A stretch of 64,000 bases of DNA, taken from NCBI RefSeq assembly GCF_012221945.1, contig NZ_CP032549.1, positions 2,666,001 to 2,730,000 of the forward strand, read 5' to 3'. Under the pieces are notes generated by a model. It was not told the DNA's origin, ran no database searches, and was given only the letters and a program-made list of their open reading frames with translations. This document shows positions 57,608-63,405 of this stretch, piece by piece. Position 1 is the stretch's first letter. Each line of letters starts with the position of its first letter. The translations under genes and the position numbers were made by a program. This stretch comes from Glutamicibacter mishrai (GTDB lineage: Bacteria; Actinomycetota; Actinomycetes; Actinomycetales; Micrococcaceae).

Positions 57608-58312
57608 CTAGCTGGGCCAAGCCAGGGTTCGCGCTACCTCATGTAGCGCGGTGCGGCATCTGGACGGATCGCGGACCAGCCCTGCTGGCAGCGCCCCGGC
57701 GAAGTCCCAGCCACCATTGACGGCCAGACGCTTCAGGTTCGCTAGATTGCGTTCATGTAGCGACCCGGGGTTTTGCGGGTAACTGCCCAACAGCAGCGTG
57801 CCCCGGGTGAAACCGCGGGCCGCGCATGCTTCTAGAGTTAACGCCGTATGGTTCAACGTCCCTAAATCCGGGCGCGTGGCCACCACAAGACTGGCATCTA
57901 CCGCTACCGCCAGATCGGCAATGGTTTCCCCGGCCTCGGTCAGCTCGACAAGTAAACCGCCGGACCCCTCGATGAGCACCACCTCATGTGCGGCAGCTAG
58001 TTCGCTGATCCGTTGTCTGTGCTCGGCCAAGGGTGGCAATGCAACAGCTGGGTCCAGCCCGGCGCACAGTGCGGCGTCCACCGGGGCCATCGGGTGACGC
58101 AGACGCACCCCTTCGAAAACCGCGAGTGGCTCGGGATTCCCCAGCCAGCACGCAATGTCTTGTGCGTCCCCGGGGCTAGTTCCTTCAACCCCGGTTTGTG
58201 CCGGCTTATAGAGAGCGACGCTGTGCCCTTGGGTCAGCGCGCGGGCCGCCAGCACCGCCGTTGTCACGGTCTTGCCGACCTCGGTATCGGTTCCAGTTAT
58301 TGCAAAGATCAA
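57608..58312 (-). CDS. bioD: Dethiobiotin synthetase
   Basis: BioD makes dethiobiotin from 7,8-diaminopelargonate, CO2 and ATP. The 234-residue protein starts FAITGTDTEVGKTVTTAVL with the P-loop, then YKPAQTGVE and the EGSGGLLVEL motif. The start is TTG 58312, overlapping the P450 stop (TTGA), with GAGAGG upstream; the longer open frame upstream lies within the P450 gene and is not credible. It is the last gene of the biotin operon and converges with map. Confidence 0.92.
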   Translation of the reverse strand: MIFAITGTDTEVGKTVTTAVLAARALTQGHSVALYKPAQTGVEGTSPGDAQDIACWLGNPEPLAVFEGVRLRHPMAPVDAALCAGLDPAVALPPLAEHRQRISELAAAHEVVLIEGSGGLLVELTEAGETIADLAVAVDASLVVATRPDLGTLNHTALTLEACAARGFTRGTLLLGSYPQNPGSLHERNLANLKRLAVNGGWDFAGALPAGLVRDPSRCRTALHEVARTLAWPS

Positions 58313-59487
58313 GGCCGTATCCTCTCGGCAGGGTACTTGACGGGCACGGTGGTTGGTGCTTGGAAGGACAATAGGTGGGTGAAGGGCGTCGACGGCCCAG
58401 CCAAGACGATCGACGGCAGGCAACGCGCGGTTTCGGCGAGCACCAGCTCGGATTCCATCCGGGCTAGGGCTGCGCCCAGGCAACGGTGGACCCCGTAGCC
58501 GAAGGCCAGCGAGTCATCGCCGACCGCGCCGAGCTGACCACCGGATAATCGCAGCACCAGCTGCTCTCCGGCTTTGAACTCAAACTCGCCGATCCGCACA
58601 TCGCTGGTGGCAACGCGCCGCCAGGTCGGTACCGATGATGCCCGGGCCAGTACCTCGCGTATCAGCTTCTGTGCGCTCGCCGGGGCCGTATCCGCATGGG
58701 ACAACTCGCTCCACGGATGATCATGCAATGCCGTATACAGTGCGGTCTGGATGAGCATTGAGGTGGTTTCTTGCCCGGCGATCCCCAAGAAATAGGCCAG
58801 CGAGCGGATCTGGCTCTCTGCGACCCCAGCCCGGTGCAGCGTGGCATAGAGATTCCCGTCATCACGCGGCACCGCCTGATGCACCGAGACTTCCAGCCAT
58901 CTGAAGTATTGGGCCGCGCTCTTGGCCAGAATCAGCTGCCGTTGTGCATCGGGCCAGCCCCAGAACAGCTCCAGCGAGTCCTGACTCCAGGTTTTGAGCA
59001 TCCCTGGGTCGGGCACTGGTAAGCCGGTCAGGCGCGACATGACTTCTACCGGGATCACTGTGGCCAACTCGGTGACCAAATCCACTGATTCGCCAGTGCG
59101 CAGCCGCAGCTCCAGACCTGAACAGATTTCGCGCACTCGGGTCAGGATCGGCTCGCTTTGGGCACGGACTTTGGAAGGGCTGAAGAAGCGTGCCACAATC
59201 CGGCGCACGGCCAGATGTGCTGGCCCCGAAGCGCTGGCCAGTACCTCGGGTAGTGCGAACCGGGCTCGAGCTAGGATGCGCAGCGCGGCCGGGTCCAGCT
59301 CCACTGCCGTGGTCAGTGCATTGGCCGGGGAGAATACCTCAGGCCTTGCGAGGATGGCGCGTACGGTGTGAGGATCCTCGATACATTGGTAGCGCGCGTT
59401 GATCGCTTCCGGGTAGGCCATGGAAAGCTCTCCAGCTAGGGGCGCGTCGGCCAAGGCGCTGGATGTCGCAGCGAAAGGACAGGTCAC
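58309..59487 (-). CDS. Cytochrome P450 embedded in the biotin operon
   Basis: This 392-residue P450 has the I-helix GIAGQETTSM (residues 235-244) and the heme loop LAFGYGVHRCLGAALARME with the proximal Cys336. The K-helix region reads EVLAR, which is not the normal ExxR spacing, and the meander between VLRLSGGQLG and the heme loop is much shorter than usual, lacking an NRDP/FDPDR segment. Its ATG overlaps the bioF stop and its stop overlaps bioD. By context it may be a BioI-like enzyme providing pimelate precursor; this is inferred. Confidence 0.9.
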   Translation of the reverse strand: MTCPFAATSSALADAPLAGELSMAYPEAINARYQCIEDPHTVRAILARPEVFSPANALTTAVELDPAALRILARARFALPEVLASASGPAHLAVRRIVARFFSPSKVRAQSEPILTRVREICSGLELRLRTGESVDLVTELATVIPVEVMSRLTGLPVPDPGMLKTWSQDSLELFWGWPDAQRQLILAKSAAQYFRWLEVSVHQAVPRDDGNLYATLHRAGVAESQIRSLAYFLGIAGQETTSMLIQTALYTALHDHPWSELSHADTAPASAQKLIREVLARASSVPTWRRVATSDVRIGEFEFKAGEQLVLRLSGGQLGAVGDDSLAFGYGVHRCLGAALARMESELVLAETARCLPSIVLAGPSTPFTHLLSFQAPTTVPVKYPAERIRP

Positions 59488-60653
59488 GAATCCTCCTCGA
59501 TGATGGTGCGGGCCACCTTCGCAATAGCCGCTGATAATTCTGGGCGCCGGTGGTGTGCGTGAGCGGTGAGCCTGATTCGGGATATGCCATCAGGCACGCT
59601 GGGCGGGCGGAAACAGGCCACAGCGATTCCCTTGCCTGCCAGGGCGGCAGCAGTCCTGGCCGCCGAGTCAGCCGTGGGCATTTTCACCGAGATCACTGCG
59701 CCGGCCCCGACTTCCACCCGGTCGGCCAGCGACAGCTGACCTTGCAATAGGTCGCGGATCAGCCCAGCGCTGTGTGCCAAGGCGCCAAGCCGTTGCGGGT
59801 CGGCTAGGCGCAGGGCCGCCAGCGCTGCGGCAGCAGCGGCGGGAGACAGCGCAGTATCGAAGATGAAGGTACGGGCGGTATTGACCAGATGATCTCGCAG
59901 CTCCGGTGCTCCTTGTCCGCCCAGCAATACCGCGCCACCCTGGGATCCCAGTGCCTTGGACAAAGTGGCGGTGGATAATACCTGCCGCTGATCGGCCAAG
60001 CCGGCAGCGAGTACTGCGGAACCTTGGCTGGTGGCGGCCAGAGAGTGGGCCTCGTCCACCAGCAGTAGGGCACCGAACTGTGTACACAGCGTGGCCAGCG
60101 CGGCGAGCGGGGCGGCATCGCCGAACACCGAGTAGATGGATTCGACCACCAACATCACCCTGGCCTTGGGGTGCTTGCTGCTTCGGTTGGCTTCCAACAG
60201 CCGCGTGAAATCCGCCAGATCGTTATGCATGGCGGTGGCGAGCGTGGCGCCCGAGAGCCGGGCGCCGTCGATCAGGCTGGCGTGGGCATGCGCGTCGAGA
60301 ATGAATAGGCTGCCTGGCCCGCCCATGGCTGCGAGCACCCCGAGGTTGGCGGTGTATCCGCTGGAGAAGACCAGGGCTGCTTGGCGTTGGGTGTACTGGC
60401 AGAGCCCCGCTTCCAGTTCGCGATGCACACTCAGCGTTCCGGTGGCCACCCTACTGGCGCTAGCCCCGGCGCCGTGGCGCAGGGCGGCGTCCGCGGCTGC
60501 CCGCCGGACCAGATGGTGAGCGGACAATCCCAGATAATCGTTGGAGGACAAGTCGAAGAGCCCGGTTGCGGAAGTATCGTTGCGTTGCAGTCCCCGGCGC
60601 AGGCGAACCGTGGCGCGCGTCGCCAACCAGGAGTCCCAAGCCGGCTCAGCCAT
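59484..60653 (-). CDS. bioF: 8-amino-7-oxononanoate synthase
   Basis: BioF joins pimeloyl-CoA or pimeloyl-ACP to alanine, using PLP. The 389-residue alpha-oxoamine synthase has DLSSNDYLGLSAH, GAGASASRVATG, VDEAHSLAATSQG and the Schiff-base Lys233 in ATLSKALGSQGG. ATG 60653 overlaps the bioA stop by eight bases; a TTG at 60674 would add seven residues. It overlaps P450 by four bases. Adjacent bioA, bioB and bioD make BioF the right choice over Kbl. Confidence 0.93.
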   Translation of the reverse strand: MAEPAWDSWLATRATVRLRRGLQRNDTSATGLFDLSSNDYLGLSAHHLVRRAAADAALRHGAGASASRVATGTLSVHRELEAGLCQYTQRQAALVFSSGYTANLGVLAAMGGPGSLFILDAHAHASLIDGARLSGATLATAMHNDLADFTRLLEANRSSKHPKARVMLVVESIYSVFGDAAPLAALATLCTQFGALLLVDEAHSLAATSQGSAVLAAGLADQRQVLSTATLSKALGSQGGAVLLGGQGAPELRDHLVNTARTFIFDTALSPAAAAAALAALRLADPQRLGALAHSAGLIRDLLQGQLSLADRVEVGAGAVISVKMPTADSAARTAAALAGKGIAVACFRPPSVPDGISRIRLTAHAHHRRPELSAAIAKVARTIIEEDS

Positions 60654-62007
60654 GGATCTGCTGTACGGCGCCAATCACACCGCGGCCCAGGGTCGCGAGC
60701 TGATCGGGGGTACTAATATAGGGCGGCATCACGTAGACCAGATCTCGGAAAGGGCGGACCCAAACCCCGCGCTGAACAGCAGCTTCGGTCACCGCGGACA
60801 CCTGGACCTCGGATGCGAGCTGGATGACGCCCACCCCGCCTAGTACCCGCACATCTTTCACCTGCGCTAGGTCTGCTGCCGGTGCCAGATGCGCGCGCAA
60901 ACCTGATTCTAGGGTGGCGACCTGATGGCGCCACGGACCATCATTGGCCGCGGTGCTGCGGTCCCCGGCGAGCAGATCCAGCGAAGCGCAGGCCACTGCG
61001 CAGGCCAGCGGGTTGCCCATGAATGTCGGGCCGTGCAGCAATGCCGAGCCGGTCGCTCCCTTCGCTCCGGCTAGGGCAGAAGCGATCCTCGAGGAGCAAA
61101 GCATCGCCGCGAGGGTCAGATAACCGCCGGTCAGCGCCTTGCCCACACACATGATGTCCGGTTCGATACCCGCATGCTGCACCGCAAACAATTGCCCGGT
61201 TCGACCGAAACCGGTGGCAATTTCGTCGGCGATCAGCACCAGGTCGTACTGGTCGGCCAGCTCGCGCAGGATGCCCAGCACCGCAGGGGGATAGATGTGC
61301 ATACCGCCTGCGCCCTGTAACACCGGTTCGCACACTATCCCGGCCAGCTGCCCGGCGTTAGCCGCGATCAGTTCACGCGTCTCTTGCTCCCATTGTGCCA
61401 AGCGGGCGACAGAGTATTCCCAGTCGCCCTGTGCATTGCGGCGCGCCGCCGGTGGCTTGGGCAGGAATAACTCGCTGGGGGAACGTTGAGCGAACGCGGA
61501 GTGCATGCCGTCTACCGGATCGCAGATGCCCATGGCCGCGAAGGTATCCCCGTGGTAGCCGCCGCGCAGCGCGGCAAAGCGGTGGCGCTCGGTGTGGCCC
61601 ATGGCTTCCTGATATTGCAGGGCGAGCTTAAGCGCCACCTCGACGCTGATCGAACCGGAATCGGCGAGGAACACATGACGCAACCCATTAGGGGTCATCT
61701 CGACCAGGCGTTCAGCCAGTTCGATGGCCGGTTCGTGGGTCAAGCCACCGAACATCACGTGGCTAAAACGCTCTAACTGGGTGCGGACCGCGGCATCCAG
61801 TACCCGGTGGCGATAGCCGTGCACCGCAGACCACCATGATGACATTCCGTCGAGAACCTCGTGGCGAGTGCCTGCGGCATCTTCCAAGACTAGTTGGGTT
61901 CCGTTCGCCTCGAGCACCGCATAGTGGGCTCCGGCATCCAGAGGTGCGTAGGGGTGCCAAACTAGGCCGACATCGCGCGATAGCAGGTTCGTTCCGGTGG
62001 TGATCAT
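60646..62007 (-). CDS. bioA: Adenosylmethionine-8-amino-7-oxononanoate aminotransferase
   Basis: BioA transfers an amino group, usually from SAM, to 8-amino-7-oxononanoate to give diaminopelargonate. This 453-residue class III aminotransferase has WHPYAPL near the start, [13 protein letters not shown], the PLP-Asp261 in [14 protein letters not shown] and the Schiff-base Lys290 in [11 protein letters not shown]. It overlaps bioB by four bases (ATGA) and bioF by eight. All features fit the family. Confidence 0.94.
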
Positions 62008-63236
62008 GCGTTCGGATTCTGTGCGGTCCCGGCGCCACGGCGGCGAAGAACCGGTTCGGCCGTGTCAGTGCCACAGCACGAGGGGGCGCTGCCAGATTTC
62101 GGGGAGACAGTGGCGGACCCGCAAGAACTGGCGCAGCCAGGTGATTGAGCATTGTCCTTATCACAGGGGTCACCGGTGGGTTGAACGGTGGTTTCGGACA
62201 GGGGATTGACCTGCTGCTTCGTGTCGTGGTCGGTTTGACCGAGGACCACGAACCCCGCGTCACCGATCATCGCCAGATCATCTTTTGCATCCTGGCCTTC
62301 GCTGGTCAGGTAGTCGCCGAGGAAGAGCGAGTTAGCTACTTCCAAGGCGGTGGCCTGCAAGGAACGTAGATGCATTTCTCGCCCTCCAGCCATACGCACT
62401 TCCTTGTCGGGGCAGACCATGCGAACCACAGCCAAAATACGCAGGCAGGCAAGTGGCGTGAGGTTCCATGTTCCTTGGAGCGGGGTGCCGTCAAAGGGCA
62501 TGAGGAAGTTGACCGGAATGGAGTCCGCGTTCAAGTCACGTAAGGCGAAAATGGCCTCCACTAATTGTTCGGGTGTTTCTCCCATCCCGACAATGAGTCC
62601 CGAGCAAGGCGAGAGGCCGGTGTTCTTGGCTTCGCGAACCGTTGCGACTCGTTCGTCAAAGCTGTGTGTGCTGCAGATTTCTGGGTACATGGATTCGGCG
62701 GTGTTCAGATTGTGGTTGTAGGCATCAGCACCAGCGGCTTTTAAGCGTTGGGCCTGACCGTCCTTCAGGATGCCCAAACACGCGCAGACCTCAACATCGG
62801 GATGTTCGCCTTTGAGCGCGTCAATCATTGTTGCCACTCGGTCTACGTCGCGATCGGTGGGTCCCTTGCCTGAAGCGACCATGCAGACGCGCGATGCGCC
62901 ACCGGCAATGCCCAAGCCTGCCTGGTGCACTGCTTCTTCTGGTTTGAGCCACGTGTACTTGAGGATTTCTGCTTTAGAGCCCAGACGTTGCGAACAATAG
63001 GTGCAGTCTTCGGGGCAAAGCCCGGATTTGAGGTTGACCAAGTAATTGACCTTCACCGTATTTCCAAAGTGTTCGCGGCGTAGTGCGCCGGCGGCACCCA
63101 CGAGGCGAAGGGTCTGGGAATCTGGGGTGTTTAGTAGTTCGAGTGCTTCGTCGGCAGTGAGCTGGTGACCCTGAGAAATCTGTTCGGCAAGCTCAGTGAA
63201 ATTGGTGGCCGTGGACTGCTGGCTTTGTGAGTGCAT
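62004..63236 (-). CDS. bioB: Biotin synthase with cysteine-rich C-terminal extension
   Basis: BioB inserts sulfur into dethiobiotin, using SAM radical chemistry. This 410-residue enzyme has the radical-SAM CxxxCxxC in [13 protein letters not shown], then [13 protein letters not shown] and [13 protein letters not shown], the family blocks. After the catalytic core there is a 68-residue tail with five Cys ([19 protein letters not shown]), unusual for BioB. ATG 63236 with GGGAAAGC upstream is preferred to the longer frame. It is the first gene of the operon, with a BioQ-like palindrome upstream. Confidence 0.94.
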
Positions 63237-63280: not shown

Positions 63281-63295
63281 TTGAACAGTGTTCAA
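63281..63295. promoter_or_regulatory. BioQ-like operator upstream of bioB
   Basis: TTGAAC-AGT-GTTCAA is a perfect 6-bp inverted repeat with a 3-base spacer and contains TGAAC-N3-GTTCA, which matches the BioQ motif I recall from corynebacteria and mycobacteria. A reverse-strand CATAAT (63295-63300) next to it may be the -10 box. A second GTTCAAG (63261-63267) faces CTTGAAC (63280-63286). Confidence 0.72.
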
Positions 63296-63405
63296 TTATG
63301 GGCACTAATGTAACAGGAAAACTGTGTCATTTGGCATTATTTGCTTTGATGCGACGTCGCATACCCAAAAATGAAATGAATTCGGACGTGAAGGGGATCG
63401 TGTAA

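Follow-up and report, generated by a model that had tools for sequence, protein, structure and literature searches.

Many soil actinobacteria carry an unusual cytochrome P450 in their biotin gene cluster, in some cases fused to a biotin enzyme. The copy studied here is encoded in the window, by which we mean the whole 64,000-nucleotide stretch of the Glutamicibacter mishrai genome that was analysed, and its product is probably a heme-thiolate P450 that evolved independently of BioI but resembles it, providing BioF with a pimeloyl thioester in an oxygen-dependent reaction. An earlier note on this DNA had proposed a divergent actinobacterial P450 route to pimelate. Judged from sequence, this is still the best reading, given linkage to bio genes in 80/80 named loci, fusions with BioF, and the lack of any BioC, BioH or BioW match over its cut-off.

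The P450 gene belongs to a minus-strand operon with the order bioB-bioA-bioF-P450-bioD, the features of which are presented in Table 1. As read from the sequence, neighbouring genes overlap at all four junctions: ATGA is common to bioB and bioA, bioA and bioF overlap by 8 nt, GTGA (59487-59484) is common to the bioF stop and the P450 start, and TTGA (58312-58309) is common to the P450 stop and the TTG start of bioD. The placement between bioF and bioD with start/stop overlaps on both sides, as the earlier note had described it, is thereby confirmed. The longest bioB reading frame starts at 63305, yet the ATG at 63236 is preferred because it lies downstream of the operator, a perfect palindrome (TGAAC-N3-GTTCA) which we take to be the BioQ motif. 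Of the 47 related loci whose BioB is of the same kind as the window's, 44 have a box of this type with at most one mismatch in the 750 nt around the bioB start. Where BioB is of a second kind, sharing approximately 35% identity with that of the window, none of the 25 loci has one, and random 750-nt pieces contain one in 2.5% of cases. The C-terminus of the window's BioB (62004-62210) is a Cys-rich tail; at least one Cys is found in the last 75 residues of 29/47 BioBs of this kind and 0/25 of the second kind.

Table 1. Biotin operon features and P450 motifs, in window coordinates.
Feature	Position	Strand	Remarks
Cytochrome P450 gene of the biotin operon	58309..59487	-	392 aa, GTG start
bioF (8-amino-7-oxononanoate synthase)	59484..60653	-	best model TIGR00858, 304 bits, below cut-off 426
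bioA	60646..62007	-	TIGR00508, 507 bits, cut-off 405
bioB	62004..63236	-	TIGR00433, 387 bits, cut-off 225; ATG start
bioD	57608..58312	-	TIGR00347, 106.5 bits, cut-off 83.3; TTG start
Palindrome TGAACACTGTTCA, BioQ-type operator	63282..63294	-	58 nt upstream of bioB ATG
EVLA, codons 278-281, position of ExxR (EVLR in relatives)	58645..58656	-	
SSVPTWRR, codons 284-291	58615..58638	-	WRR in 80/80 named loci
Missing-meander site, codons 317-325	58513..58539	-	
Heme-ligand Cys, codon 336 (FGYGVHRCLGA)	58480..58482	-	
GQETT, codons 238-242, I-helix oxygen-activation motif	58762..58776	-	QETT in 80/80 named loci
SLELFWGW, codons 171-178, biotin-type clade signature	58954..58977	-	SLELFWG exact in 71/80 named loci

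The encoded protein has the P450 fold, with a predicted model of pLDDT 91 that matches P450s over its whole length; its heme loop reads FGYGVHRCLG (pattern FxxGxxxCxG) and its I-helix AGQETT (pattern AGxxTT). The K-helix ExxR and full meander of the P450 superfamily are missing. At the ExxR position stands EVLA, and because it aligns ungapped with the EVLR of CreJ-like relatives, the Arg is replaced by Ala. From WRR to the Cys there are 44 residues, where the aligned ExxR relatives have 58, which leaves the meander approximately 14 residues short. The Pfam p450 model scores 37.2 bits (cut-off 22.8), with residues 325-352 alone being aligned. The absence of ExxR at normal spacing and the strongly shortened meander before Cys336 had both been pointed out previously, with correct residue numbers (EVLAR 278-282, Cys336), and both hold. 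The accompanying view of a structurally odd protein holds only in part: the departures are real, but they are a trait of the whole family and not peculiar to one protein. Since other members of the family share this state, with dN/dS of 0.20-0.34 in six pairs (rough ratios in the four with dS > 1), chance and sequencing error can be ruled out; a one-off mutation or frameshift was likewise rejected, the lack of ExxR and of the meander being family-wide. The N-terminus reads MTCPFA (59467-59487), whose CPF motif is common to several relatives and is also found at the BioF-P450 join in four of six fused proteins.

ExxR is absent from all of the best 120 of 730 homologous proteins passing E 0.001, the window's own among them. 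The named loci, 80 of 187 confirmed, were found by P450 profile alone; ExxR is absent in 77 of them, the full distribution being 70 with neither E nor R, six with E only, one with R only, and three with both (L021, L033 and L034). All 80 retain the Cys, WRR and QETT, and SLELFWG is invariant in a 35-row alignment. Spans of 59-68 residues are found in fifteen loci, each of which has the second kind of BioB, and the inserts of the eight that were inspected are unlike a meander. In L046, L050, L057, L061 and L076, low-complexity inserts stand where the meander was lost, as if the loop tolerates anything.

These motifs bear on the possibility of a degenerate P450 that acts as a scaffold or activator of BioF without oxygenase chemistry, in the manner of P450-derived glycosyltransferase activators. 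Such a role, for which the loss of ExxR and meander and a match to the activator model TIGR04515 could be cited, is very unlikely: the match, at 43.8 bits, is far below the cut-off of 343, by which a glycosyltransferase-activator pseudo-P450 was rejected, and the Cys and QETT needed for oxygen chemistry persist in every named locus. Moreover, the available portion of PMC3599690 describes a Streptomyces P450 family, CYP157, in which the Arg of ExxR is also lost (EVLW/EQSLW), so that ExxR is not a strict P450 requirement; CYP157 differs in being linked to conservons, and is likened to the window P450 by description only.

Every one of the 80 named loci has a bio gene next to the P450, with no more than 4 nt between the stop-to-stop frames; BioF is found in 79, with the exception (L041) cut by a contig end, and bioA or bioD lies within 8 kb in 79, the remaining locus (L067) being a BioF-P450 fusion. 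The gene order is B-A-F-P450-D or, where Arthrobacter-type loci carry the second BioB, B-A-F-D-P450. This second operon type (L045, L046, L047, L050 and other Arthrobacter-type loci) thus combines a BioB of approximately 35% identity and a P450 after bioD with the lack of a BioQ-type box. The gene clusters common to most of the loci are accounted for by the five operon genes and frames overlapping them, and among these clusters no conserved sixth gene was seen beside the P450.

The survey of bio operons, which the earlier note had suggested, revealed fusions in addition to this linkage. BioF and the P450 form one ORF in six of the 80 named loci: L021 and L034 (Micrococcus), L033 (Kocuria), L039 (Rothia), L067 (a Propionibacterium MAG) and L069 (Propioniferax). 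A single ORF is also present in genomes G302, G207 and G322, while the fused ORF of G292 is L034 again. The positions of the BioF PLP-lysine and the P450 Cys are invariant across the six aligned fusions. On a tree built without the K-helix and meander columns, parsimony yields three fusion events, two of which rest on less sure rows (L096 on a long branch, L067 on an 84/83 fork). The predicted model of the fused protein is poor, with a pTM of 0.45.

Because the P450 is fused to BioF, its product is suggested to be BioF's own thioester substrate. This counts against a P450 that serves biotin supply from a different substrate, such as a cyclic or short C7 precursor or a free fatty acid. Alkylphenyl phosphates are the substrate class of CreJ, and this nearest solved relative was solved with a small alkylphenyl phosphate, according to the PDB title, which speaks for such a substrate. 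Nevertheless, no conserved neighbour was seen that could supply or activate a small precursor, and BioW is absent, making this alternative unlikely.

The genome survey covered 149 Micrococcaceae genomes, with samples drawn from larger groups. Matches were considered strong above 370 bits for the P450 and 400 bits for BioF, thresholds chosen after the scores had been seen; the next scores down are 212 bits for the P450, and 285 (G226) and 242 for BioF. The BioF of G226 is partial and was counted as absent. A strong P450 is found in 44 genomes and a strong BioF in 53: 43 present both, one the P450 only (G290, with the locus at a contig edge), ten BioF only, and 95 neither (Fisher p 1.4e-26, not corrected for phylogeny). 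The P450 matches in G202 and G241 have one TGA each, and the BioF match in G327 has two stops. In part of the Micrococcales, then, BioF is accompanied by the P450. Within the Micrococcaceae this is so in 43/53 genomes with strong BioF and is not universal, 10/53 being without the P450.

No strong family P450 was found anywhere in the ten BioF-only genomes or G226, and no linked pimeloyl substitute was recognised by eye among the neighbouring ORFs of Micrococcaceae with BioF and without the P450. The same is true of seven BioF-containing genomes from other Micrococcales families, in which neither the P450 nor a linked substitute was recognised. In the order sample, 11/198 genomes have a strong BioF, and three of these (G000, G005 and G125) also have the P450. 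Clusters of bioB-A-F-D without the P450 or a recognised pimelate gene are seen at L082, L083, L086, L087, L160-L163 and L165. Micrococcales with BioF and without the P450 either have another source of pimelate or cannot make it.

These gaps are relevant to a tailoring P450, one that would make a biotin-pathway analogue or modify a later intermediate and be non-essential for biotin. Absence from 10/53 BioF-containing Micrococcaceae would be in keeping with that role, as would the Streptomyces P450s found around biotin-like antimetabolites in the accessible sections of PMC13336041. The role is nonetheless quite improbable given the primary operon, with its BioQ-type box in 44/47 loci with the window's BioB kind, the fact that no conserved sixth gene was seen in the clusters shared by most loci, and a fusion partner that is BioF itself.

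Regarding rival pimelate genes, none of the 149 Micrococcaceae genomes, G. mishrai included, has a BioC match over the curated cut-off (1/14 controls passes) or a BioH match over its own (the E. coli control passes), in agreement with the absence of bioC and bioH on which the earlier proposal depended. BioW, also said to be missing from the operon, has no match in the 149 genomes either at E 0.001 or over the cut-off (the B. subtilis and M. jannaschii controls pass). The BioG model has 0/149 matches, and its controls are likewise without a match. Sub-cut-off methyltransferases match the BioC model in all 149 genomes (best 81 bits versus 185), and the best hydrolase of G. mishrai reaches 77 bits versus 207 with the BioH model. 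A divergent BioC/BioH-like pair is possible because such methyltransferases and hydrolases occur below the cut-offs.

In the class survey, 14/296 genomes match the P450 at E 1e-50, weaker matches being other P450s; in the phylum survey, 10/396 match at E 1e-70, of which seven (approximately 239-255 bits) are other P450s, with no bio genes in the stretches of the six that were fetched. The P450s at approximately 180-255 bits, both CreJ-like (L092, L093, L119, L120, L124, L127) and others (L121, L122, L125, L126, L139-L144), were rejected as family members. No bio genes are present in their stretches, and the LELF motif is absent from those examined.

In comparison with known systems, the solved structures closest to the window P450 belong to CreJ and to CYP116B heme domains, and not to Bacillus BioI. 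CreJ (5gwe/5xjn) is 26-28% identical to the window P450, below the 40% rule for a CYP family; the CreJ-like genome relatives that were aligned have ExxR and a complete meander, and their stretches are free of bio genes. BioI (CYP107H1, Bacillus subtilis) is likewise encoded in a biotin operon, but it keeps ExxR and the full meander and is 21% identical by Foldseek and 19% by VIA-align. Membership of CYP107H was therefore rejected, since more than 40% identity is required within a family according to the portion of PMC3599690 at hand. In the tree, BioI is the outgroup on a long branch, its exact placement being outside what the tree resolves. The parallel with BioI drawn in the earlier note thus holds for the operon, while the family itself is closer to CreJ/CYP116B. 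The best reading, by analogy, is of a P450 that would work like BioI but outside BioI's CYP family.

As far as the available text of PMC12915131 goes, the characterised pimelate routes are BioC-BioH, BioI-BioW, BioZ and BioE; BioI is described there as restricted to B. subtilis, where it is genetically redundant, and BioE as a diiron oxygenase, i.e., a non-heme enzyme of another class from other bacteria. Another actinobacterial pairing of a P450 with a BioF-like enzyme is MkpG and MkpD of the Streptomyces alpha-methyl-KAPA cluster: in the excerpted text of PMC13336041, deletion of mkpG or mkpD abolishes alpha-methyl-KAPA, and MkpG is called homologous to BioI. That system belongs to secondary metabolism, has a branched product, and is set beside the window P450 by description only. 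No paper dealing with a P450 of this family from an actinobacterial biotin operon was recognised among the CC0, CC BY and CC BY-SA literature in PMC, consistent with the earlier expectation that such a route would be new or little known.

The tree also bears on how the unusual state arose. The clade comprises 45 rows (support 100/100) and includes a meander-less subclade of 39 rows (98/93), with two genes entered twice, as rows L001/L094 and L074/L123. Full-meander members with ExxR are found in the same clade, four with bio genes in their stretch (L113, L116, L117, L118) and two with no bio gene in a 17-kb stretch (L114, L115). In the I-helix, the latter two read AGQSTT where the window protein has AGQETT, and they perhaps have another function. 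Parsimony yields one change for meander loss and five for ExxR status, with L055 scored as short by hand, its 60-residue span being a low-complexity insert. L112 has no meander, yet still has the Arg. From the bio-linked full-meander members, these change counts and L112, parsimony therefore suggests that bio linkage came before meander loss and that ExxR decay came after, some fused members having kept or regained ExxR. Deletion of the meander may have left the ExxR pair, which it normally contacts, free to decay.

The acyl-chain cleavage performed by BioI serves as the model for the P450 reaction. By this model, an enzyme descended separately from BioI, with CreJ/CYP116B as its nearest kin, would use a Cys-ligated heme together with O2 and electrons supplied by unlinked redox partners to oxidise a long acyl chain (as a thioester) at C7/C8 and cleave the in-chain C-C bond. 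The product would be a seven-carbon dicarboxylic thioester, pimeloyl-ACP or pimeloyl-CoA, to be used by BioF. We infer the reaction, substrate, acyl carrier and redox partners from BioI and MkpG/MkpD, as described in the accessible parts of PMC12915131 and PMC13336041. With somewhat less confidence, we favour the broader picture of a further actinobacterial pimeloyl route, for which a P450 would have been recruited independently of BioI, co-translated with or repeatedly fused to BioF so that the thioester is passed straight on, and relieved of its meander and then its ExxR while its heme chemistry was kept.

If true, the fused proteins would be bifunctional BioF-P450 enzymes of a kind not found in the literature searched, and the family would offer a natural test of the purpose of the ExxR-meander network. 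The evolutionary series from a full P450, through loss of the meander, to loss of ExxR bears on the question of why ExxR is so nearly universal among P450s. Screens for P450s that rely on motifs could misjudge these proteins, because Pfam aligns just 28 residues of the window protein. Many of these actinobacteria have bioB, bioA, bioF and bioD and no recognised pimelate gene, and the P450 family is a candidate answer to how they make pimelate.
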